From the NCBI GenBank assembly GCA_028823105.1, contig JAPKCC010000022.1, positions 1 through 37,629 of the forward strand: a stretch of 37,629 bases of DNA. Direction: 5' to 3'. This stretch comes from Phycisphaerales bacterium (GTDB lineage Bacteria; Planctomycetota; Phycisphaerae; Phycisphaerales; SM1A02). Each line of letters begins with the position of its first letter. Position 1 is the first letter of the stretch. The notes under the pieces are model-generated. The model was not told the origin of the DNA and ran no database searches. It worked only from the letters and a program-made list of their open reading frames with translations. Below, piece after piece: positions 1 to 27,713 of the stretch. Position numbers and translations under genes: made by a program.

Positions 1-152
1 GAATCGTTGCCCTCCTTCCTCGTGCGTTGCGGAGGTGGCTTCGCCGCCTCCTCGCTTTCTTGAATCGTTGCCCTCCTTCCTCGTGCGTTGCGGAGGTGGC
101 TTCGCCGCCTCCTCGCGTTCTGGATTCCTTCCTTCCGCGTGTTGTCGGATCC
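1..152. repeat. 61-bp tandem repeat, two near-identical copies plus a decayed third
   Basis: Copy 1 spans 1-61 and copy 2 spans 62-122. They differ at only two positions, both in the last seven bases. A degenerate partial third copy follows at about 123-152. Each full copy contains a 9-bp-stem hairpin with a TTC loop (31-51 and 92-112), with one G-T wobble in the stem. The period is not a multiple of three, so an ORF running through the array reads each copy in a different frame; this argues for a DNA- or RNA-level repeat rather than a protein repeat. The array runs off the left edge, so total copy number is unknown. Confidence 0.9.
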
Positions 153-186
153 AGGAGTTCAGGTTGATGAGCCGTTGGTTCTTCAT
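1..186 (-). CDS. Partial small ORF with ideal ribosome binding site, entering the 61-bp repeats
   Basis: On the minus strand an ATG at 186 is preceded, with 6 nt spacing, by a near-perfect AAGGAGG (191-199). The frame stays open for 62 codons to the left edge. It starts MKNQRLINLNSWIRQHAEG and then becomes Arg/Glu/Gly-rich where it runs through the 61-bp repeats. Because the unit is 61 bp, the two copies encode different peptides, so only the first 20 or so residues could be under ordinary protein-level selection. I recognise no family. It may be a real short gene whose 3' part has been overrun by repeats, or a spurious ORF with a fortuitous ribosome binding site. The stop codon lies outside the window. 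Confidence 0.35.
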   Translation of the reverse strand, partial: MKNQRLINLNSWIRQHAEGRNPEREEAAKPPPQRTRKEGNDSRKRGGGEATSATHEEGGQRF

Positions 187-237
187 GCGGCACCTCCTTG
201 CGGGTTGAGAACCTCGTGATCAGGCCACGCTCTTACG

Positions 238-368
238 GAGGTGGTCTCACCACCTCAGGCCTTTCTCGTGATCTTTCGTGCAGGTCCACAATCAGATGGA
301 TCAGCAGGCTCGCCTGCGTCGCCCATTCCGCCCTCGCCGTTCGGTCGCATGGCCGAAGCCATGCGACC
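238..368. repeat. Cluster of REP-like palindromes
   Basis: Three further perfect hairpins follow the two in the 61-bp repeats. At 238-256 there are 8-bp arms (GAGGTGGT) around CTC. At 304-317 there are 6-bp arms (GCAGGC) around TC. At 343-368 there are 11-bp arms (GGTCGCATGGC) around CGAA. None has a U-run, so they do not look like simple terminators. The first resembles the repeat-unit hairpin in stem sequence (GGAGGTGG). Five stem-loops in under 400 bp of non-coding DNA resemble REP/BIME-type intergenic palindromes, but no REP-associated (RAYT) transposase is in the window. Confidence 0.7.
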
Positions 369-564
369 TGAGGCGTGGTTCGTGAGTTGGTCATCCGGCA
401 CTTCCTTTCTGCATTGCTGCATTGGTGGCGAGTTGTCTCACAGGTGACTTGGCATGTACTTCTACGCACCGCCGTATGGGCCGTTCGTATTCCCGTCGGT
501 TTCTCCGAGCGAATCGTTCGATTGCTCAGACGAACGTTCAATCTTCTCGAGGGTTCAAAAAAAG
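369..564. other. Non-coding stretch, no supported gene
   Basis: No convincing gene is visible here. A 50-codon plus-strand frame begins at 454 behind an AGGTGA-like element, but it reads straight through the terminator stem at 565-592 and stops just after it, so I do not call it. Confidence 0.5.
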
Positions 565-592
565 ACGGGGCCGCGTCTGCACGCGGCCCCGT
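565..592 (-). terminator. Rho-independent terminator of the patatin-like gene
   Basis: A perfect 12-bp stem (ACGGGGCCGCGT with its complement) closes a CTGC loop. On the minus strand it is followed by a run of seven U (the A-run at 557-563 of the plus strand). It lies about 120 nt beyond the stop codon of the minus-strand gene ending at 711. The plus side has only a short TTTTT after a spacer, so termination in that direction would be weaker. Confidence 0.85.
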
Positions 593-710: not shown

Positions 711-1976
711 TCACGGCGCGACCGTGTTCCAGGATTTCGGATCCGCCCCGATCCTCTGGCCGTCGTCGGAGAGTGACCGCATCGTCGCGGCGTCGAACAT
801 GTTCATCGGGTTCGGGCTCACGAGTTCCTTCTCGACCGCGATCCACCGGACCTCGACGTCGCCGTTGCCACGGAGCCGAGTCAGTTCCGCCAAGGCATAC
901 AGGTATCGCAGCGAGGTGATCTCGGCCGAGGTGTAGAGGAGCTGGAAGGCACGATCCGCGACCGAGGGCCAGGTCGGCTCCGAGATCGCCGGAGGAATCC
1001 GAAGGTTGCCATTGAGGATCACCCAGTACCGGGTCTTCGGAATCGGGGCGTCGGGGTGGAGCTTCTTCCACATTCCCCCGAACGTATCCTCGGGGGACGA
1101 CGCCCGACCGCCCGAATAGAAGTTTCCGATCGCCCCGCCGTCGACGTAGAGGGTGCCGTCGATCTCTCTCGGGGGAAAGACCGCCGGGATGGCGCAGGAG
1201 GCGAGGATGATCTCGTGGAGATGGGTGGCATCCTTCGACTCGATGGCCTTCCGAGCGGCATCCGAAAAATCGAACACGCCTGGGACCTGTGCGTCGATGT
1301 TGCTGGCCTGAATTATCAGGATCCGGCCGTCAGTCGTCGCCTTGTCGATCTGTTTTGCGAAGTCGAGGTTGATGATCTTTTCAAGATCCCGTTTGATCCC
1401 CGACACCTGCATGAGGCTCAAGTTCTTGGGATGGAAGGAGATCGGTGTTCGCAACGTCACCCAGTCGGGCTTGGGGTTGCGAAAGAAGTCGTCGACTTCC
1501 TTCCTCGCCTCGTCGGTACCGAGGTAGGCGAAGGGGGCGATGAAGGATCCCGTACTGACGCCGGACACACCATCGAAGGTCGGTAGGGCGTCGGGTCCGG
1601 GGGGGACGGTCGCCCAGCCCAGGAGGAAGCCGGCGCCGAAGGCGCCGTTGGCGCCGCCTCCCGAGAGGATGAGAAAGTCAATCGTCGCCTCAGGATCCTG
1701 CTGCTGGCGTGCGAACATGCGTTCCACGAGGGCCTTGGTGTGCGCGTCTTTTTTCGTCTTGCTGGACGCCAGCGCGTCCTTCTTTTGCGTGTCCAGTTCC
1801 GCGGCCGATACCGCCGTTCGTGGAGGCCGGATGTTGTTTCCTTGGATGACTGGTAGAAGCAGGTAGATGACGACCAGCAGGCCGGCGACTGAGAGGACGC
1901 CGAGTAGGAACGAAATGAGGATGGGCCCTCGATGTCGGGGCCTGCCGGATTTTTGGTCGGAGTCATTCTTGGTCAT
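711..1976 (-). CDS. Patatin-like phospholipase, membrane-anchored
   Basis: The product is a 421-residue protein of the patatin-like serine lipase/acyl hydrolase family, expected to cleave acyl esters of membrane lipids with a Ser-Asp dyad. A single hydrophobic segment (about residues 18-45) follows a basic N-terminus and would anchor the protein in the membrane. The oxyanion loop GGGANGAFGAG is at about 106-116. The nucleophile elbow GVSTG is at about 139-143, with Ser141 the likely nucleophile. The catalytic Asp lies in a DGG motif (LYVDGGAIGNF) near residue 280. All expected patatin landmarks are intact. The start ATG lacks an obvious Shine-Dalgarno sequence. The gene is separated from proS upstream on the same strand by the proS terminator and has its own terminator at 565-592, so it is probably monocistronic. 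The substrate cannot be read from the sequence. Confidence 0.9.
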   Translation of the reverse strand: MTKNDSDQKSGRPRHRGPILISFLLGVLSVAGLLVVIYLLLPVIQGNNIRPPRTAVSAAELDTQKKDALASSKTKKDAHTKALVERMFARQQQDPEATIDFLILSGGGANGAFGAGFLLGWATVPPGPDALPTFDGVSGVSTGSFIAPFAYLGTDEARKEVDDFFRNPKPDWVTLRTPISFHPKNLSLMQVSGIKRDLEKIINLDFAKQIDKATTDGRILIIQASNIDAQVPGVFDFSDAARKAIESKDATHLHEIILASCAIPAVFPPREIDGTLYVDGGAIGNFYSGGRASSPEDTFGGMWKKLHPDAPIPKTRYWVILNGNLRIPPAISEPTWPSVADRAFQLLYTSAEITSLRYLYALAELTRLRGNGDVEVRWIAVEKELVSPNPMNMFDAATMRSLSDDGQRIGADPKSWNTVAP

Positions 1977-5921: not shown

Positions 5922-6877
5922 GCCGCGGCCGAGTTCCATCCGCTCGACCCCTCGACCCGGCACTCCCCGTTTCGGACGAGATGAAACGCGTTCTGCGAGA
6001 GGAACTCCAACAGGTACTCGACGCGTGCGAGGCGCATGGATCCTGGGAGGTTCGCATGCGAAGCGAGGCGATTCGTCGAGCCCGCAAGGCGCTCAAGCGG
6101 TTCCGAGCAATCCTCGATCTAGTCAAGGGGTCGATCGACGCTGAATCACACGAAGCGATGCGGGTGGCCGCCCGCGGACTCGGCCGCCGGCTTTCGCCGC
6201 TTCGGGATCGGGACGTGATCATGGAACTCCTGGCGGGTCTGCAACAAGACGTGTCTGGGCGGAAGACGCGGGAGGCCATTCGACTGGCGTCGGCGGTGCT
6301 GTCCGCAAGTCAGGCAATCCCCACCGCTCGCGACCATCGGGAGGATGAAGCCATCGTTGCGTCAGTGGGGGCGGATATTCCAAGCGTGGCGGCACAGCTT
6401 CACGCCACAGACTTCGCGAAGGTCGATCACGATTTCGTAATCGGGCGGCTCGAGCGAGCATGGCGGCACCATCGGCGACGTTTTCACGAGGACGCTGCAG
6501 AGAATGACGATCTCTCGCGTCTTCATGAGACGAGAAAGCGGGTGATTCGCCTCCAACTTGGCCTGAGTGCGATCCGTAACGTCAGCGCGAAGTCGATCCG
6601 CCGGGAGATCCGGCGGTTGAAGGCGGTTGCCGGATCGCTTGGTCGCGATCGCGATCTCTCTCTTCTCGAGGGTCTGATCGTCACGCATGCCGATCGATTT
6701 CCGGAGTCCGACCCACGAGCCCGCGTGGAACGTGAGATTCGATCACGTCGGCGGGCACTGCAGCGAAATGCGATTCGCAACGGCCGCCAGGCATCGAGGC
6801 GATCACCGAAAGCGGCTCGTCAACGTCTTGAGAAGTGGTGGAAGGCGGCGTCAAAGCGGTCGCCGTCCGGCGCCTGA
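5918..6877 (+). CDS. CHAD domain protein
   Basis: The 319-residue protein is entirely helical and very rich in Arg, Lys and His. It matches the CHAD (conserved histidine alpha-helical) family, which binds inorganic polyphosphate through basic helices. Visible markers are RMRSEAIRRARKALKRFRAI, the LGRRLSPLRDRDV segment, HRRRFHEDA, LHETRKRVIRLQL, and a second half-repeat RREIRRLKAVAGSLGRDRDL. The two RRL...RDRD halves fit the duplicated four-helix architecture. No CYTH domain or polyphosphate kinase is fused or adjacent. The ATG at 5918 overlaps the ubiA stop (ATGA); the longer upstream frame is only a shadow over ubiA. The gene converges on the VOC gene with just 16 bp between stops. Confidence 0.9.
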   Translation: MSRGRVPSARPLDPALPVSDEMKRVLREELQQVLDACEAHGSWEVRMRSEAIRRARKALKRFRAILDLVKGSIDAESHEAMRVAARGLGRRLSPLRDRDVIMELLAGLQQDVSGRKTREAIRLASAVLSASQAIPTARDHREDEAIVASVGADIPSVAAQLHATDFAKVDHDFVIGRLERAWRHHRRRFHEDAAENDDLSRLHETRKRVIRLQLGLSAIRNVSAKSIRREIRRLKAVAGSLGRDRDLSLLEGLIVTHADRFPESDPRARVEREIRSRRRALQRNAIRNGRQASRRSPKAARQRLEKWWKAASKRSPSGA

Positions 6878-6893
6878 ATCGGTCGGCAGGTAT

Positions 6894-19094: not shown

Positions 19095-19562
19095 TCAACC
19101 CCTTCGGTCGAGTTCGAGGAACTCCACGCCAGCTTCATCGAAGACCGTCCGGCTTTTCTCGATCGATTCCAGCCAGTGCGCATCACCATGGTCCGATTGA
19201 TCCGGCTGGTACGTGACCACGGTGGTGATCCCCGCCTGAACCAACGCAATCGCGCAGTTGACGCAAGGGAAGAACGATGAGTAGACCGCGCAATCGATCG
19301 GGCTCACGCCGTTCCGGGCGCACTGAATGATCGCGTTCATCTCGGCGTGCACGATGAGGTCGTACTTAGCAGGACGTTCGAGACGCTCGGGTCGATCCTC
19401 GACGCCTCGCGGCAGACCATTGAATCCGGTGGAGACCACCTGCTTGTTGGGCGAGACGATCACGGCGCCGACCCCTCGCGATGGATCCTTGCTCCACCCG
19501 GCGATTTGTTCCGCCAGAGCAAGGAATCTTCGATGCCATTTCTCACTGAACGGGACCGTCAT
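19095..19562 (-). CDS. Deoxycytidylate (dCMP) deaminase family protein
   Basis: The 155-residue protein belongs to the zinc-dependent cytidine/dCMP deaminase family, which makes dUMP from dCMP for dTTP synthesis. Zinc and catalytic motifs are intact: HAEMNAI (His and Glu) and FFPCVNCAIAL (the PCxxC pair). The early segment WSKDPSRGVGAVIVSPNKQV fits ComEB-type dCMP deaminases. The family's second structural zinc site is not obvious. I chose the ATG at 19562 (MTVPFSEKW) because it overlaps the stop of the GH29 fucosidase gene (ATGA). Co-expression of a nucleotide enzyme with a fucosidase looks accidental rather than functional. Confidence 0.88.
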   Translation of the reverse strand: MTVPFSEKWHRRFLALAEQIAGWSKDPSRGVGAVIVSPNKQVVSTGFNGLPRGVEDRPERLERPAKYDLIVHAEMNAIIQCARNGVSPIDCAVYSSFFPCVNCAIALVQAGITTVVTYQPDQSDHGDAHWLESIEKSRTVFDEAGVEFLELDRRG

Positions 19563-21664
19563 CGTTTGAGCGCCTCCGCAGGTAGGGGTTGAAGTTCGAA
19601 GCCCGGTCCGGACCACTTCAGAATCAGATCATCCTGACCGGTGCCTTCAAAGTAGTCGAGGCGGAGAGGGTGCAATCCCTTCTCGAGTGCGATCACGCCG
19701 CTTTTCTCGAGGGCGGAGTGCAGGCCATCGTTATCGACGACCACCACGCTACCCAGTGAGAGCATGCTGCCGTCATCGGAATCGAGCGAGAACCGGTAGA
19801 TCCCGGTTCGTGGCGCGTTGAGGAAGCCGGTGAATCGAATCCCGAAGTTTTCGGAACGGGGCTGCATCGACAGGTCGATCGATGTCGCAACGCCTTCCGC
19901 GGCAGGTTCGAGTCCGTCGAGGCCGGCGACGGTCTCAAAGCTTCCGAGATACGCCGCCCAGCTGAGGCCGGGCCGAGAGGTCAGGGTCTGGACCGCACGC
20001 AGTGGCTTTACCCGCCGAAGTGTCGCAGTCGCAACCTTGCCGACTGGAGCGCCGTCGAAGAAACAGCGAGCCATGACGGTGGCGGAACGTCGAATCTCAA
20101 CTGGTTCATCGCCAGGATCTGACGACTCTGAGAATTCCGGGGTGGTTCCATCGAGCGTGTAACGGATCTCGACTTCATCGCTGGCGGCGGAGAATTTCAA
20201 CATCGTCGACTCGAGAAAGATCGGTTCGGCGACATCGATGCTCGGCGCGTCTACGACGATCGCCGGCCCCTCGATATCGAGGACCAATACGGTGTCAATT
20301 TCTACCGACATCCCTTCGGGGAGTCGAATCGTGAGATCGGCGCCTTCCCGTTCGACGGTGAGTGGTCCGGCGCCAGGATTCGCCAGGAGAAAAGCGCCGC
20401 GTTCCACGGGATCGTTGAGAAGACCTGGTAGTCGGATCACCCCGGACGTTGGCGACTCGAAGACGTGCAGGTAGAGCCGTTGGTTCTGATCGGCAAGGTT
20501 TCTTCGCGTACAGCGACCCCAGTCCAGTCCGGTGAAACAGGAGGCGAAGGTGCCGTGAATGCTTTCATCATTCGCCTGCATCCAGCGGCCGATCGCGGCG
20601 AGCCGCTCGATCGATTGTTCGGGGAAGCGGCCTCGTTCGTCCGGCCCCACGTTGAGCAGAAAATTGCCGCCCTTGCTGGTGATGTCGACGAGTTTCCGAA
20701 CGAGTTCCTTGGTCGGCTTGAATGCCACATCGAAGGATTGGTATCCCCACGACCGGTTCATGGTCATGCAGGTCTCCCAGTCAACGCCAAAGGGCATGCC
20801 GGTCGCGGGAATTTCCTGTTCGGGCGTTCCGAAGTCCCCCCGGTACCCGCCGGATCGGGTGAGTCCCGCCATGCCGGTCCGTCCGGTATCGACACGGTTG
20901 TTCACGATCACGGCCGGGTCGATGGTGCGAACAAAGTCGTACATCGACTGTCCGTCCTCGTGCGTCCAGGTGCCTTCCCACTCTCCGTCGAACCACAGCA
21001 CCGCTGGTTGATATCGCTCGACGAGCTCCTGCAACTGTCCCTTCATGTACCCGACGTACTGCTGGTAGTCGGCATCATTGCTCGGACGATCATCCCACGC
21101 GCGTCGCGGGAGATAGTCGGGTCGCGTCCAGTCCATGATCGAGTGGTAAAGACAGAGGACGATGCCCTCATTGCGGCACGCGGTGGCAAGCTCTCCGAGG
21201 ATGTCGCGGCCGAAGGGTGTTCCCGCGACGTCGAAGTCTGTGAGTTCACTGGGCCAGAGGCAGAAGCCGTCGTGGTGCTTGCTGGTGATGACGATGTACT
21301 TCATCCCGGCGTTCTTGGCCATCATCACCCACTGCATCGGATCGAAGTCGACGGGGTTGAACTGCTGTTGGAGCGGCATGTAGTCGTCGGGGTGAATCTT
21401 CACCGAGTTGAGGATCCATTCCGCGCCGCCGGTTCGTCGGCCTTCCCAGTACCCGCCGGGGATCGCATAGAGACCCCAGTGGATGAAGAGGCCGAAACGA
21501 GATTCGCGCCACCAGGCCATCCGCGCGTCATGTTGCGGGACGGTCTCGACCAGCGGCGTCTCGGTTCGAGGCGGAAGATCCGAAGGCCACCACGTTGCTT
21601 CCGGGGGCGGAAGGGCCCCGGTGGTGATGGCGGCATGGGCGAGCAGGCTGCAGAGGAATGGCAT
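19559..21664 (-). CDS. Secreted GH29 alpha-L-fucosidase with chitobiase-type and PA14-like domains
   Basis: This retaining exo-alpha-L-fucosidase would release fucose from fucosylated glycans outside the cytoplasm. The 701-residue protein has a short signal peptide (MPFLCSLLAHAAITTGA). The GH29 barrel shows FGLFIHWGLYAIPGG (58-71), SKHHDGFCLW (128-137), YHSIMDWTRPDY, and AVLWFDGEWEG with Asp226 the predicted nucleophile. A domain with IRYTLDGTTPEF matches the chitobiase/beta-hexosaminidase C-terminal module. The last 130 residues (DSDDGSMLSLG, then LDYFEGTGQDDLILKWSGPG) are PA14-like and probably bind carbohydrate. I chose the ATG at 21664 for the signal peptide; the longer frame starts at 21733. 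Its stop overlaps the dCMP deaminase start. It follows the GNAT gene by 49 bp and is divergent from the GH95 gene. Confidence 0.93.
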   Translation of the reverse strand: MPFLCSLLAHAAITTGALPPPEATWWPSDLPPRTETPLVETVPQHDARMAWWRESRFGLFIHWGLYAIPGGYWEGRRTGGAEWILNSVKIHPDDYMPLQQQFNPVDFDPMQWVMMAKNAGMKYIVITSKHHDGFCLWPSELTDFDVAGTPFGRDILGELATACRNEGIVLCLYHSIMDWTRPDYLPRRAWDDRPSNDADYQQYVGYMKGQLQELVERYQPAVLWFDGEWEGTWTHEDGQSMYDFVRTIDPAVIVNNRVDTGRTGMAGLTRSGGYRGDFGTPEQEIPATGMPFGVDWETCMTMNRSWGYQSFDVAFKPTKELVRKLVDITSKGGNFLLNVGPDERGRFPEQSIERLAAIGRWMQANDESIHGTFASCFTGLDWGRCTRRNLADQNQRLYLHVFESPTSGVIRLPGLLNDPVERGAFLLANPGAGPLTVEREGADLTIRLPEGMSVEIDTVLVLDIEGPAIVVDAPSIDVAEPIFLESTMLKFSAASDEVEIRYTLDGTTPEFSESSDPGDEPVEIRRSATVMARCFFDGAPVGKVATATLRRVKPLRAVQTLTSRPGLSWAAYLGSFETVAGLDGLEPAAEGVATSIDLSMQPRSENFGIRFTGFLNAPRTGIYRFSLDSDDGSMLSLGSVVVVDNDGLHSALEKSGVIALEKGLHPLRLDYFEGTGQDDLILKWSGPGFELQPLPAEALKR

Positions 21665-21713
21665 GAGGTGGTTCTCCGTCGCTGATCTTATCGAAGCGGC
21701 AGAGATCGTCGAA

Positions 21714-22244
21714 TCATGGCGTCGCGACGTCAATCGGCCTGTGGATGGGATCTTCGCCGCCGAGGTCGAGGCTCCAGTATCCGATGTCGTGCCAACGATC
21801 GAACTTCCAACCGATCGCGGGGAGTCGCCCCGCCTCGCGATACCCGATTCGTTCGTGCATGCGGATGCTGGGGTCGTTGGGAAGGGTGATCACCGCAACC
21901 GCGATTCGGAATCCGGCGCCGCGGAGCGCGTCGAGCAGGGCGAGGGAGAGCTCGGTCCCGAGGCCTCGTCGGTTCTCGGTCGCCCGGACGTACACCGACG
22001 TCTCGGCGGCGAAGCGATACGCGGTTCGATTTCGGAAGCGTGTTGCGTAGGCGTAACCGACGACATCGCCCCGGTCGTCCTCGGCGACGAGCCACGGGTG
22101 CGTCTCTATGGTGCGTTCGATCCGCCGAGCCATCTCGGAGTCGTCGGGGGCGACGGATTCGAAGCTCACGGCGCCTCGATCCACGAACGGCGCGTAGATC
22201 GCGGCGATTGGGGCCGCATCGATGGATGTCGCCGGTCGGATCAC
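21714..22244 (-). CDS. GNAT N-acetyltransferase (phosphinothricin/methionine-sulfoximine acetyltransferase-like)
   Basis: The 176-residue protein opens with MIRPATSIDAAPIAAIYAPF and continues GAVSFESVAPDDSEMARRIE. It carries the acetyl-CoA-binding stretch TENRRGLGTELSLALLDAL, and RMHERIGYREAGRL followed by KFDRWHDIGYWSLDL. This order is characteristic of the phosphinothricin acetyltransferase (PAT/MddA-like) branch of GNAT, which acetylates free amino groups of methionine-sulfoximine-like compounds. The native substrate is unknown. It lies just upstream of the GH29 gene on the same strand and is divergent from GH95 (72 bp between starts), so it may share a bidirectional promoter region, though it has no obvious role in glycan use. 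Confidence 0.88.
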   Translation of the reverse strand: MIRPATSIDAAPIAAIYAPFVDRGAVSFESVAPDDSEMARRIERTIETHPWLVAEDDRGDVVGYAYATRFRNRTAYRFAAETSVYVRATENRRGLGTELSLALLDALRGAGFRIAVAVITLPNDPSIRMHERIGYREAGRLPAIGWKFDRWHDIGYWSLDLGGEDPIHRPIDVATP

Positions 22245-22316
22245 GCGGGGACGATACCATCAGCGAAGGCCCGTCCACGATTTCGCGCCGGCCGGGCCCC
22301 AAACCGGGAGCTACCG

Positions 22317-25295
22317 ATGTCGACCGTCTCAGCCCGTGGTGTCGTAATCGCCGCAATCGCCGCAATCGTCTCCTTCGAGTCGATCGTGTACGGCGATCCG
22401 CCCATCTTGCTCGACGTCCCGTCGTCCTGGAACGACCACGCTGCCACGGAGCTCCCGCTTCATGATGGCTTCGCGTGGTACGTGCTTCCAGTCCAGATTC
22501 CTGCGGACTGGCGGCCTTCGAACCTCAGACTCGATCTCGGGGAGATCGACGACGCCGACGAGACCTTCTTCGATGGCGTACGAGTCGGCAGCACGGGCGG
22601 CATGCCCCCACGGTCCCGGAGTGCCTGGCAGACCGCCCGGCGCTACACCGTGCCTTCCGAACTGGTGCGGCCCGGTGGGACGAGCATCATCGCGGTTCGC
22701 GTGCACGATTCCGGAGGCAATGGGGGCATCTGGAGTGGAGCGCCGCGACTCGAAGGTCCCGACGGCGCCCTCGACCTGTCCGGCGCGTGGATCTTCGAAA
22801 CCGGCGACGAACCGGGACCAATCAAGGCCGAGGCGGGCGAAGCGCGATGGAAGGAATTGCGACGTGCCGCCACCGCCGCCGACATCGGTCCGGCCGGTGC
22901 GGTCGCGTCAACGTGGGTCGCCGCCAGCCGCGCGGATTCACCGGTCGGCGACGTCCTCTGGTACGAAAAACCTGCCGACGCGTGGACCGAGGCGCTTCCG
23001 ATCGGAAACGGACGACTCGGCGGGATGGTCTTCGGTGATCAGTCCGGCGTGATCCAGGTCAATGAAGATTCGGTCTGGGCGGGGTCGCCGATCGATCGGC
23101 ATCGGTCTCCGGGGAGTGGATTACTCGCCGAATCCCGGCGGCTCTGGTTCGAGGGAGACGTCATTGGTGCGCAACGGATCATGCAAAAAGAGTTCATGAG
23201 TGAACGGCTGACTCGAAGCCATCAGACGCTCTTCACGGTCGGGACCCGGTGGGTCGACGACGGCGCGACGATGAAGGACTATCGGCGTTCGCTCGATCTC
23301 GCCACTGGCATCACGGAGACCACGTTCGCCTCGAATGGACATCGGTACCGCTGTCGGATGTTCGCCAGCGAGGCGGATGATGCCATCGTGGTTCGTTGGG
23401 AGACCACTGCCCCGAACGGGATGCATGCGGCGATCGGGGTGGGGCGCCCGGAGATGCGCGAAGGAGGCACCGAGGTGGGAGGTGTCTCGACTGTCACGGC
23501 GGTCGGCAGTTCCATGCTCGTGACCGGCCGGGCGATCAATGGCGACCACCCGGGCGTCCGGTACGCAGGACTCGCATCGATGCGTGGCGAAGCCTTGCAC
23601 GAGCTTCCTGAGGAGATCACGGTTCCCGCGGCATCTGGGCTCGGCGCCGTCTCCAGCTACTCGAACGTCGCTCGACGGGTTCGGGCGTACACGGTGGTCA
23701 TCGCCGGCGCCACCGACATGCCCGGGTACGGCGTTCCCGATCCGAAGGCCGAGGTTGAGAGAATCGCCGCGAAGGCGATCGCGCGTGACTTTGACGACTT
23801 GCTTCGCCGACATCTTGCGTCCTTTCAACCCCCCATGCAGCGGGTCTCAATCGATCTTGGGACGACGCCTCAGGCGGCGAAACCCACCGACGTCCGGCTT
23901 CGGGAACTCCGCGAGGGCGCTGATGACCCGGCGCTCTTCAGTTTGTATTTCCAGTTTGCCCGGTACCTGCTCGTCTCGTGCTCTCGTCCCGGGACGCTGC
24001 CTGCAAACCTCCAGGGACTCTGGAACAATCACGTTTCGGCGCCGTGGAACGCCGACTATCACGTGAACATCAATCTGCAGATGAACTACTGGCCGGCCGA
24101 GGTCGGGAACCTCGCGGAATTTCACGAGCCAGCGTTTGATTTCACGGAGCGTCTCGCAGAGCGAGGGCGAGAGACGGCGCAGCGACTCTACGGCGCCGAT
24201 GGATGGATGGCTCATCACACCTCGGACGCATGGGCCTTCACCGTTCCCATCGGTCAAACCGTGTGGGGCATGTGGCCGCATGGCGGGGGATGGATGACGC
24301 GTCATCTCTGGGAGCACTACCTGTACTCCGGCGATGAGGTCTTTCTTCGAGATCGAGCGTGGCCGCTGTTGCGAGGCGCGTCCGAGTTCTATCTCGACTA
24401 CCTCTGCGAGGACCCGGCAACCGGCCTGCTCGTCTCAGGGCCGAGCAGTTCGCCCGAGAACACGTTCATCACCGACGATGGACAACGAGCGAACATCGGC
24501 ATGGGAAATGCGATGGACCAGGAGATTGTCTGGGATGTCTTCACCAACCTGATCGATGCCGCGACGGTGCTCGGCGAGTCCGATGATGACGTTGTCGTCG
24601 CCGCCGCGGTCGCCCGCGATCGACTTGCGATGCCGACCGTCGGAACCGATGGCCGGCTTATGGAATGGTCGCGACCCTTCGGCGAGGCGGAGCCAGGACA
24701 TCGCCATATCTCCCATCTCTACGGGTTGCATCCGGGTTCACAATTCAATCATCAGACCACGCCTGACCTGCTTGCGGCAGCCCGGAAGTCTCTTGATTTC
24801 CGACTCGCCAACGGCGGCGGTCATACCGGTTGGAGCCGAGCGTGGCTGGTCAACTTCATGGCGAGGCTGCACGATGGGGAGGCGGCGTATAAAAACCTCC
24901 GACTGCTCCTCGTGAAGTCGACGTTGCCGAACCTCTTCGACAATCACCCACCGTTTCAGATCGACGGGAATTTCGGTGGCGCGGCGGGCATCGCCGAGAT
25001 GTTGGTCCAGTCCCATGTCCCGCTCCCGGACGCGTTCGCACCGGGTGTGCCGCCGAGATTCCAGATCGACCTGTTGCCCGCGCTGCCCGACGCCTGGCCC
25101 CGTGGCGAGGTGCGAGGGCTTCGAGTCCGAGGCGGGCTGACCATCGACCGCCTGGCCTGGACACCCGAAGACATCTGGGTGGAGTTCTCGAGCGCTTCGG
25201 CGAAACGGGTTCGGGTGCAACCACCGAACGGCGAGAAACTGGTCGAGATGGCCGAACGCGACGGAAAGATGATCTTCACATTCAAGCGAAAATGA
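22317..25295 (+). CDS. Secreted GH95 alpha-L-fucosidase/alpha-galactosidase-like glycosidase
   Basis: The 992-residue protein is an inverting GH95 enzyme, typically a 1,2-alpha-L-fucosidase. A signal peptide (VVIAAIAAIVSFESIVYG) is followed by an N-terminal jelly-roll (about 30-200) with WYVLPVQIPADWRP and VRVHDSGGNGGIWSG, resembling the sugar-binding domain of GH2-type enzymes. The GH95 part starts LWYEKPADAWTEALPIGNGR with GGMVFGDQSGVIQVNEDSVW. The NxN pair (N584, N586 in HVNINLQMNYWPAE), Glu714 in SSPENTF and Asp883 in QIDGNFGG match the catalytic set known for the bifidobacterial 1,2-alpha-L-fucosidase. The ATG at 22317 has GGGAG upstream and precedes the signal peptide; the frame open back to 21483 is a shadow over GNAT. 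It complements the GH29 enzyme transcribed divergently. Confidence 0.94.
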   Translation: MSTVSARGVVIAAIAAIVSFESIVYGDPPILLDVPSSWNDHAATELPLHDGFAWYVLPVQIPADWRPSNLRLDLGEIDDADETFFDGVRVGSTGGMPPRSRSAWQTARRYTVPSELVRPGGTSIIAVRVHDSGGNGGIWSGAPRLEGPDGALDLSGAWIFETGDEPGPIKAEAGEARWKELRRAATAADIGPAGAVASTWVAASRADSPVGDVLWYEKPADAWTEALPIGNGRLGGMVFGDQSGVIQVNEDSVWAGSPIDRHRSPGSGLLAESRRLWFEGDVIGAQRIMQKEFMSERLTRSHQTLFTVGTRWVDDGATMKDYRRSLDLATGITETTFASNGHRYRCRMFASEADDAIVVRWETTAPNGMHAAIGVGRPEMREGGTEVGGVSTVTAVGSSMLVTGRAINGDHPGVRYAGLASMRGEALHELPEEITVPAASGLGAVSSYSNVARRVRAYTVVIAGATDMPGYGVPDPKAEVERIAAKAIARDFDDLLRRHLASFQPPMQRVSIDLGTTPQAAKPTDVRLRELREGADDPALFSLYFQFARYLLVSCSRPGTLPANLQGLWNNHVSAPWNADYHVNINLQMNYWPAEVGNLAEFHEPAFDFTERLAERGRETAQRLYGADGWMAHHTSDAWAFTVPIGQTVWGMWPHGGGWMTRHLWEHYLYSGDEVFLRDRAWPLLRGASEFYLDYLCEDPATGLLVSGPSSSPENTFITDDGQRANIGMGNAMDQEIVWDVFTNLIDAATVLGESDDDVVVAAAVARDRLAMPTVGTDGRLMEWSRPFGEAEPGHRHISHLYGLHPGSQFNHQTTPDLLAAARKSLDFRLANGGGHTGWSRAWLVNFMARLHDGEAAYKNLRLLLVKSTLPNLFDNHPPFQIDGNFGGAAGIAEMLVQSHVPLPDAFAPGVPPRFQIDLLPALPDAWPRGEVRGLRVRGGLTIDRLAWTPEDIWVEFSSASAKRVRVQPPNGEKLVEMAERDGKMIFTFKRK

Positions 25296-25322
25296 CCCTT
25301 CCCGGTTTGGGGCAAAGAAACA

Positions 25323-25353
25323 GGCCCATCGGAATCGTTGATTCCGATGGGCC
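25323..25353 (-). terminator. Terminator of tRNA-Pro / GH95 convergence
   Basis: A perfect 14-bp stem (GGCCCATCGGAATC with its complement) closes a 3-nt GTT loop. On the minus strand it is followed by TGTTTCTTTG, fitting termination of the tRNA transcript. It begins 28 nt after the GH95 stop codon, so it could also stop that transcript. Confidence 0.8.
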
Positions 25354-25357
25354 CGAA

Positions 25358-25431
25358 TCAGGGCGACAGGATTCGAACCTGCGACCTGCGACTCCCAAAG
25401 CCGCCGCTCTACCAAGCTGAGCTACGCCCTG
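25358..25431 (-). tRNA. tRNA-Pro (anticodon TGG)
   Basis: Read on the minus strand, the acceptor arms CAGGGCG/CGCCCTG pair perfectly with C1-G72, the Pro-type end, and discriminator A. The D arm GCTC..GAGC, a five-base-pair anticodon stem with loop TTTGGGA (anticodon TGG), and a T arm containing GGTTCGAATCC are all present. CCA is not encoded. It reads CCA and, with U34 wobble, other Pro codons. Confidence 0.95.
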
Positions 25432-25500
25432 AATTGATCGGGGATTGTACGCGGCCCCTCGGCCTCGCCAAGGCCTTCGAGCGCTCGGAATATCGAGTTC

Positions 25501-25514
25501 CGGAAGATCTTCCG
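25501..25514. other. 14-bp perfect palindrome upstream of tRNA-Pro
   Basis: CGGAAGATCTTCCG is a perfect zero-loop palindrome about 70 bp upstream of the tRNA on the minus strand and downstream of the sialidase gene. It could be an operator, or chance. The rest of 25432-25667 contains no gene I can support. Confidence 0.35.
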
Positions 25515-25667
25515 TGTTATTTCGGGGAACGAGGTCTCGAATCGGCCTTGATCATCAAGACTGGGGGGTCATGATCGAGATCTTGGCTCGGGCATCGCCG
25601 GCTTCAGCATCACGGTTTTCCGTGGCCAAGGGGGGTCGGGACACTGACGGGCCGAGCCGATGGTCGT

Positions 25668-27713
25668 TCAGCAGGGACCCCACGCCGCCAGCAGCAGTCC
25701 CATATCGGCACCACCGACCGTTCCATCGCCGTCAAGATCCGCGGAGCCGTCCGCCGCCCACTGGCTCAGGAGAAGCCCCATGTCGCGGCCATCGACAAGT
25801 CCGTCACCGCTGAGATCGGCGGGGCACTCATCGATGGCGCAGGGTTTTTCCGGGTCGTTGGTCTCCTCCCCGTCGGTCAGCACCTCGAGCGAGAGGCGAA
25901 GAAAGCGGATGGTCGCGTACCCCGCTCCCTCATAGAGGAGTCCGACATCCTTGCAGGGGTCGAGCACGGCGAGTTGGCTGTAGCCGAATCCGCCGGGGAC
26001 CACCGTCGTCACCAATGGCCATGTCTCGCCTCCGTCTTCGGAGATCACCACGGATCCATTCGAGCGTGAGCTTGTGGACCACGGTCCCGCATAGAGCAGG
26101 CGGCTGGTCGAGAATCCGTCCGTCGTGTCGTTGAAGAGCACGATCGAGGCCATGCAGGTCGGCGTGATCAGTTCATCATCGGGCTCGAGGGTCGTCCAGT
26201 TACGACCTCCGTCGATGGAACTTGATCGGAGGCGGTAGTGCGGCGAACCGTTTCCGCGTGCGTTGAGGAGGATGGTGCCATCGTCGAGCTCGGCGATGGC
26301 GACTTCATCGCCGGTGCCGTTTCCGGAACCATTGTCGACGTCCACGCCCCGCGCCCAATTCTCGCCTCCATCATCTGAGTAGAGCATGAAGATACGCATT
26401 GAGCTCGGGGGTCCCTTGCGGAGCGGAACGACGAGACGCCCCGCGGCATCTCCGTGACGCAGTTGTATTCCCACCCCCGGACTCCCCGCGAAGTTTGACG
26501 AGGCGGGTCGCGCGATTTCGGTGATGTCCAGCGGCGCCGTCCACGTCGCACCTTGATCATCGGAGTGCATCAACCAGTTCCGCGACGTTCCTGGGCCGTA
26601 TCCCGTCGGCACGCAGTGGGTATGGCAGCCTTCGGGAAAGGACATATAGAAGAGGTAGACGCGGCCGGTGTTCGGGCCGGCCCGAACCTCGACCGCGAGT
26701 GGATCGTTGAGCGATGTGCCACCCTGATCATCGAGCAATTGCAGCGGGCCCCACGTCTCCCCGCCGTCGGTCGATCGCTTCAGAATGATGTCGTTCTTGG
26801 CGTGGTCGCCACCGTAGCGCCCTTCGGCGAAGGCGAGAATCGTTCCGTCCTGAAGACTCAGCAAGGAGGGGATTCGAATGTTGGGATAGGTATCGACGCC
26901 GACCTGAAAGACGACCGAGCTGGGTGGGGGCGGGGGAGGTTCCTGAAGGTCGTACCGGCGATCGAGATACGTCTCGATCGCATCGCGATCGCTCGCGTCA
27001 AGCGCCGAGGCATAGACCAGTATCTCGCAGATGCCTCCGGAGAGATGCTGGCTCAGGGAATACCGCGACCCAAGCATGAACCCCGCGAGATCGCTCACGG
27101 AATTGGTCCCGATGGCCACGGTCTTCCCGTTGAGCCGTAACTCTTGCTCACCGCGTGCCATGACGGCCGTCACCATGGTCAGTGCGCCGGGTCCGATGAG
27201 GTCGGACGTGATCGTCGGGTTCGACCCGGTGAACAGTGTCCAGACGGAGGGGTTGGCCGACTCTCCGGTGAGCAGGGCGTTTCGGCCGCCGCTCGAACTG
27301 GAATCGAATACGTATCCCCCATTGGCGGAATCGGGACGAGTCACTACGAAGATCGTTCGCGGCCCAGATATCGTGCCGAACTCACTGCTCGACGCCCAGA
27401 TGAGATCGTTGCCATCGAATTCGAGGGAGGGCATTCCGTTTCCGGCATCGTGGCGGAGAATCGGTCGCGCCCTGGCGTTCGACGCGACTCGAGTCAGATC
27501 GTGCCCGTTGGAGCTCGCGTCATCCCATCGTTCGACGACGGTTCCATCGGGTGGAAGTCCGGCGATGCCGTTGACGCCGGAGTCGGGTCTGTACCAGGCG
27601 TGCAGATCAGAGAACGCGGGATTCGGATCCCCGTTTTCCAGCACGATGGACTGTCCGAAGGACATGGCGCTGGAGCAGGCAAGGACGAGTATGCCGACGA
27701 TGAGGGCTCGCAT
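25668..27713 (-). CDS. Secreted LamG-like / GH33 sialidase / dockerin-like protein
   Basis: This exo-alpha-sialidase would release sialic (or related nonulosonic) acids from glycans outside the cell. The 681-residue protein has a signal peptide (1-20, cleaved near SFGQ) and a LamG/concanavalin-like domain (about 25-255). A polyproline linker (259-264) leads to a six-bladed sialidase (about 268-612). The sialidase carries the RIP motif (R280-I-P), Asp boxes at about 314, 384, 446, 499 and 558 (STDGGETW, SDDQGATW, SDDGGENW, IDGGRNW, SEDGGETW), and candidate catalytic Tyr578 (FGYSQL) with a Glu nearby. A dockerin-like tail (632-681) has two Ca-loop repeats, DLSGDGLVDGRDMGLLL and DLDGDGTVGGADMGLLL. 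It lies 35 bp downstream of its LamG paralogue on the same strand and was probably co-transcribed with it. Confidence 0.92.
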   Translation of the reverse strand: MRALIVGILVLACSSAMSFGQSIVLENGDPNPAFSDLHAWYRPDSGVNGIAGLPPDGTVVERWDDASSNGHDLTRVASNARARPILRHDAGNGMPSLEFDGNDLIWASSSEFGTISGPRTIFVVTRPDSANGGYVFDSSSSGGRNALLTGESANPSVWTLFTGSNPTITSDLIGPGALTMVTAVMARGEQELRLNGKTVAIGTNSVSDLAGFMLGSRYSLSQHLSGGICEILVYASALDASDRDAIETYLDRRYDLQEPPPPPPSSVVFQVGVDTYPNIRIPSLLSLQDGTILAFAEGRYGGDHAKNDIILKRSTDGGETWGPLQLLDDQGGTSLNDPLAVEVRAGPNTGRVYLFYMSFPEGCHTHCVPTGYGPGTSRNWLMHSDDQGATWTAPLDITEIARPASSNFAGSPGVGIQLRHGDAAGRLVVPLRKGPPSSMRIFMLYSDDGGENWARGVDVDNGSGNGTGDEVAIAELDDGTILLNARGNGSPHYRLRSSSIDGGRNWTTLEPDDELITPTCMASIVLFNDTTDGFSTSRLLYAGPWSTSSRSNGSVVISEDGGETWPLVTTVVPGGFGYSQLAVLDPCKDVGLLYEGAGYATIRFLRLSLEVLTDGEETNDPEKPCAIDECPADLSGDGLVDGRDMGLLLSQWAADGSADLDGDGTVGGADMGLLLAAWGPC

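Follow-up and report, generated by a model that had tools for sequence, protein, structure and literature searches.

The window analysed in this study, which is the whole of contig C113 of genome G000 (positions 1-37629, so that the window starts at the contig edge), opens with a tandem repeat whose units contain hairpins. The question raised by this locus is whether such a repeat is a mobile element related to the REPs, a carrier of a small gene of its own, or a product of purely local expansion. To answer it, we compared the locus across eight genomes of the genus (G000-G007, with G000 being the genome of the window) and 29 genomes of other genera. The genus genomes are drafts, and repeats may be collapsed in copy counts. 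The features are collected in Table 1.

The preliminary description reported two nearly identical 61-bp units with internal hairpins, followed by three further perfect hairpins, and both observations were confirmed. The two units (1-61 and 62-122) are identical at 59 of 61 positions (97%), TRF called the repeat at 1-121 with 2.0 copies, and the exact hairpin GGAGGTGGCTTCGCCGCCTCC is present in both units, with 0 occurrences expected in 100 shuffles when up to three mismatches were allowed. Since window base 1 is the contig edge, the array is cut at this point. All three later hairpins were found; the first of them is 74% alike to the repeat hairpin across 34 nt, and the counterpart of the last one in G006 is imperfect. 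The SD-like stem GGAGGTGG recurs at positions 31, 92 and 237, that is, in both repeat hairpins and in one of the three later hairpins, not in two, as had been proposed. Folding of the initial 400 nt gave z = -3.1 in comparison to dinucleotide shuffles, none of 100 shuffles being equally stable.

Table 1. Features of the repeat locus, of the remaining window and of related loci in the genus (window coordinates unless another source is given)
Feature	Position	Strand	Remarks
Two tandem 61-bp units	1-122	+	Right-hand end of the array, cut by contig edge
ORF B (mini-gene of the preliminary description)	1-186	-	Start at 186 behind AAGGAGGTGCCGCATGA (199-183); runs off the contig
REP-like hairpin, unit 1	31-51	+	9-bp stem, 3-nt loop
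REP-like hairpin, unit 2	92-112	+	
ORF A	233-394	-	53 aa, MTNSRTT...LIVDLHERSRERPEVVRPPP
Perfect hairpin, 8-bp arms	238-256		Covers final codons of ORF A
Perfect hairpin, 6-bp arms, 2-nt loop	304-317		Within ORF A; read by eye
Perfect hairpin, 11-bp arms, CGAA loop	343-368		Within ORF A codons
Two-way terminator-like hairpin	565-592		Boundary of the region
Patatin-like gene	711-1976	-	Beyond the hairpins
Carbohydrate-active cluster	19559-27713		Alpha-L-fucosidase, GH95, BNR-repeat protein
tRNA-Pro (TGG)	25357-25432		Within the carbohydrate-active cluster
Candidate RNA upstream of the array	L050:7837-8082 = G000:C94:40836-41081; L047:2855-3085		Also in L048, L051, L052
Alternative hairpin repeat of G004/G005	L051:3428-3600; L052, about 6770-6880		Further short gene after it
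Terminator locus 1	G000, G003, G006		Unnamed RNA downstream of ubiX
Terminator locus 2	G006, G001		tRNA-Pro-like gene; five units of 89 bp in G006, one unit in G001
Terminator locus 3	G007		Second tRNA-Pro-like gene; two units, the second with RAYT-tail-like flanks

A search of the whole genome for the 61-bp unit revealed further copies at the 3ʹ edge of contig C94 of G000 (41082-41197), located directly after a terminator, which rules out a single-copy unit. Duplication by the assembly was rejected as well, because in G006 a single contig spans an array whose units have diverged; moreover, the units at the two contig ends of G000 differ. The gene order in relatives leads us to infer that C94 adjoins C113 in G000. 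The G006 contig (C23, 5,179 bp) contains, in unbroken order, a gene that we take, from its sequence and relatives, to be ubiX, a conserved RNA-like stretch with its terminator, seven units, ORF B, ORF A, a terminator-like hairpin and, on the minus strand, a gene the end of which is presumably dockerin-like, as judged by eye. Six of the seven units fit the hairpin-core pattern, and the seventh begins with TTACGG. The same order is kept on contig C49 of G003, with two units and with ORF B absent. The patatin-like gene of the window occupies the place of another secreted-type gene in G003, G005 and G006, thus the gene on the far side of the hairpins has been exchanged in G000. Farther along, the window includes a carbohydrate-active cluster with a tRNA-Pro gene inside it.

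The stretch between ubiX and the array is conserved and structured, about 230 nt long, and provided with its own terminator in five of the eight genus genomes, and we regard it as a candidate new small RNA. Its L047 sequence was matched in five of 61 genomes, every one of them in the genus. Rfam yielded no family for it and nothing credible at E<=10; among known RNA families only a tRNA reaches gathering in the window. In the consensus fold of five sequences, 8 of 65 pairs were changed on both sides. In G004 and G005, the same RNA terminator is followed by a different hairpin, CAGRCCCGCAAGGGGCCTG, instead of the REP-like one, and this hairpin occurs twice in G004.

The repeated element itself is a palindrome of about 34 nt that is able to fold as a hairpin, which places it within the 20-50 nt of REPs; its cleanest form is GATCGCTGCGGGGACGGCTCCGCCGTCTCCTCGC and the form found in the window is GCGTTGCGGAGGTGGCTTCGCCGCCTCCTCGC. 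Like REPs, it is dispersed over the genome, occurring on several unlinked contigs in each of G000, G003, G006 and G007. We based a hairpin-core pattern on the units already known (the window locus, G006:C23, G003:C49, G003:C53, G007:C23, G003:C72, G000:C44 and G005:C123), and this pattern led to new copies on G006:C3, G006:C41, G006:C28, G006:C14, G001:C166 and G007:C47. The 28-nt core was matched exactly 20 times in six of the eight genus genomes (five in G000, one in G001, three in G003, one in G005, eight in G006 and two in G007) and in none of the 29 genomes of other genera; the core pattern search found none in G002 and G004. When up to two mismatches were allowed, there were 28 matches in the genus and 10 outside, in comparison to six in the genus for the reversed control pattern, which outside the genus was commoner than the true pattern. 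The genus genomes contain 1-14 copies each at this level (in drafts where repeats may be collapsed), which is below the canonical REP copy number, usually >100 according to PMC2817692. At the foot of the hairpin, GT[AG]G was absent from both strands of the aligned units and their contexts, stem covariation was not above that of shuffles, and no junction with two states differing by exactly 34 nt was seen among the genomes compared. Most units begin after T and end before T (GATCG...CTCGC|T), with C|T steps near both sides.

The preliminary description had advised a search for RAYT transposases, and a Y1_Tnp/RAYT-like gene with the hairpin in its 3ʹ end was indeed found in the genus. PF01797 (Y1_Tnp) was detected in four of the eight genomes, above the cut-off in G001, G003 and G007 (E 1.7e-13 for the RAYT-like gene, with the HUH-type motif NHVH present) and partially in G006. 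The edge of contig C112 in G000 contains 299 bp that encode the RAYT N-terminus as far as the HUH motif, and no complete gene was seen in this genome; in G005 there was no RAYT at all, yet one hairpin is present. The top NCBIfam family was the REP-associated tyrosine transposase (NF047646), ranked over IS200, with a score of 56.4 bits that lies below the cut-off of 80; PDB sequences gave no match at E<=0.01. The full-length gene occurs at most once per genome, and in G000, G001, G003 and G007 RAYT adjoins one common neighbour gene. In G003, it enters the hairpin at its contig edge. Hairpin-bearing fragments of the RAYT 3ʹ end were located in eight places (G003:C72, G003:C22, G005:C123, G000:C44, G006:C41, G006:C28, G006:C14 and G007:C47, the last with two mismatches to the core pattern), which correspond to about four loci if each shared flank is taken only once. 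In G001:C119, the RAYT tail has no hairpin; relative to it, 23 residues replace one, in frame, in the G003:C72 copy (net +22 residues), and the G003 gene shows the same insert up to the contig edge. Between the RAYT tail and the tRNA loci there are identical runs of 36-41 nt. No second, inverted hairpin fitting the pattern was found beside RAYT, only the 3ʹ-side hairpin in G003 and no pattern match on the opposite, 5ʹ side, in a search bounded by the contig ends there in G000, G001, G003 and G007.

The hairpins outside RAYT fragments lie directly behind intrinsic terminators of RNA genes at three of three loci (the tRNA-Pro-like identities at loci 2 and 3 were read by eye); of those inside RAYT fragments, seven of seven tested were not behind terminators, G007:C47 being outside the tested set. 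In the window, 18 terminators were counted in 74,058 strand positions, and only 0.34% of positions are located within 14 nt after one, thus the position of all three loci is unlikely to be due to chance, with the reservation that this statistic is post hoc, calculated once the loci were known, and uses a home-made terminator rule. At the first tRNA-Pro site, the terminator is present without the hairpin in G000 and G003; the hairpin is also absent in G002, G004 and G005, but their flanks differ. At the second tRNA-Pro site, it is absent in G000. A RAYT fragment without the hairpin follows a tRNA terminator in G001:C119. The 89-bp units of G006 repeat a host flank that is single in G001, and since the arrays include host flank, they must have grown after insertion. 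Our full-text literature search found no description of REP insertion at terminators among the titles and abstract openings listed.

The locus resembles the REP/BIME sequences with TnpA_REP (RAYT), the REPtrons, in its short GC-rich intergenic hairpin, both dispersed and in tandem arrays, and in the link of the hairpin to a Y1 HUH-type transposase gene with a constant location. It departs from REP/BIME in the lack of a GT[AG]G head, in the 1-14 copies per genome, in the inverted pairs, of which none was seen, and in the terminator-adjacent sites; unlike in REPtrons, the enzyme motifs are nearest to subclass 2.1. According to PMC6006769 (sections 12 and 17), a hairpin in frame within the transposase gene, as observed here, is reported for subclass 2.4, and atypical REPs without GT[AG]G, similar to our hairpins beside a Y1 gene, are known from class 3 and subclass 2.6, whereas no REPs are given for subclasses 2.1 and 2.3. 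According to the same source, TnpA_Y1 of class 3 occurs in Planctomycetes with the motifs W[TA] and YV..EQ; our enzyme has WE and YIHGNP instead. Judged by motifs only, NHVH, WE, YIHGNP and a long tail, it looks most like subclass 2.1 (Bertels group 1: NHVH, W[EQ], Y[IV]HLNP and a C-terminal tail). Group IIC introns insert adjacent to terminators. The analogy would be confined to this shared type of site, as their enzyme and element are unrelated to those described here.

The preliminary description had also considered that the element carries its own mini-gene, read from the minus strand into the repeat. The start codon and its good Shine-Dalgarno sequence are present, and the mini-gene is unsupported as stated: ORF B ends after 32 codons with KPPP-stop in G006, reads on through the repeat in the window and has no corresponding region in G003, which leaves it unsupported also as a conserved gene. 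ORF A is better conserved and is probably coding. It was found at the locus in five of the eight genus genomes, with the start and RBS common to all five and with length differences in frame, and dN was lower than dS in 10 of 10 pairs, although G006-G003 was nearly equal (0.113 and 0.121) and the independent contrasts are few. It gave no match in Pfam and PHROGs and none better than E = 4.6e-4 elsewhere in 101 genomes, and nothing ties it to the hairpin element. ORF A ends with PEVVRPPP, its final codons being covered by a hairpin, and the thought occurs that this might be an ending of the stalling type. Both ORFs share a 17-nt RBS/start motif and endings in RPPP or KPPP over a hairpin. This similarity and the low dN of ORF A could be explained if the units derived by decay from copies of a mini-gene composed of an RBS, a start, a few codons and a hairpin coding for ...KPPP-stop, acting as a peptide-coding or ribosome-stalling element. 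However, 61 bp shifts the frame at each unit, ATG is absent from the array units, ORF B is missing in G003 and reads through in the window, and the hairpins elsewhere are not within such ORFs, which makes this explanation highly improbable.

Alternatively, the array could be a local satellite, in which slippage during replication multiplied a terminator-proximal hairpin at each locus independently of any transposase, the likeness between loci being a convergence of GC-rich stem-loops. The presence of host flank in the tandem units, the frequency of hairpins in GC-rich intergenic DNA and the covariation no higher than in shuffles would agree with this. We nevertheless consider it unlikely, as convergence hardly accounts for an identical 28-nt core at unlinked loci that has no exact match in 29 other genomes, for the long identical runs shared by the RAYT tail and the tRNA loci, or for the orthologous tRNA-Pro site without a hairpin in G000 and G003. 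The hairpin might also be no more than the terminus of an IS200/IS605-like insertion sequence in decay, and the scattered copies might be 3ʹ remnants of transposition that was aborted or incomplete, rather than REPs. Many copies are indeed RAYT 3ʹ fragments with the hairpin, and one hairpin-less fragment lies behind a tRNA terminator. A multi-copy insertion sequence, however, would not be expected as a single full-length gene at most per genome with the same neighbour in four genomes, at three loci RAYT sequence is lacking on one or both sides of the hairpin, and NCBIfam ranks the REP family above IS200; this origin therefore appears improbable.

The reading that we favour, with moderate confidence, is that the window begins with the right-hand end of a tandem REP-like array, and that this array belongs to a family limited to the genus among the genomes searched and linked to a RAYT-like HUH/Y1 gene, presumably mobilised by the RAYT-like enzyme into terminator acceptors and followed by tandem growth. 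The REP-like nature suggested in the preliminary description is largely retained, with regard to the multi-copy unit, the hairpins dispersed in the genus and the RAYT-like gene with the hairpin in its 3ʹ end, and not with regard to GT[AG]G, the copy number and the inverted pair. Because of these three features we did not class the element with the canonical REPs; its mode of action is probably similar to theirs. In the proposed mechanism, the RAYT-like enzyme would recognise the hairpin in single-stranded DNA, cleave at C|T steps beside it and join the element into other sites; cleavage by TnpA_REP at C|T beside the hairpin is described in PMC8266576. Intrinsic terminators, with a GC-rich stem-loop and a C/T-rich tail, may be favoured acceptors owing to their likeness to the enzyme's own substrate. 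One copy would have landed behind the terminator of the unnamed RNA gene downstream of ubiX and would then have been amplified with its flank, by further strand transfer or replication slippage, with a period of 61 bp at the window locus and 89 bp at the tRNA-Pro locus of G006.

A more specific proposal, which we put forward only tentatively and regard as rather doubtful, is that a RAYT of a group reported to have no REPs (the subclass 2.1 type) owns a REP-like element that is devoid of the GT[AG]G guide, and that intrinsic terminators serve this system as acceptors. If this is true, REPs would be targeted to the ends of genes for tRNAs and small RNAs and would expand into arrays there, which bears on how REPs choose their sites and which RAYT groups still move them. 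The link to terminators suggests a simple targeting rule, as well as a reason why draft contigs end at such loci. As the family is low in copy number and its sites are occupied in some genus genomes only, it offers a convenient test of RAYT-driven insertion.
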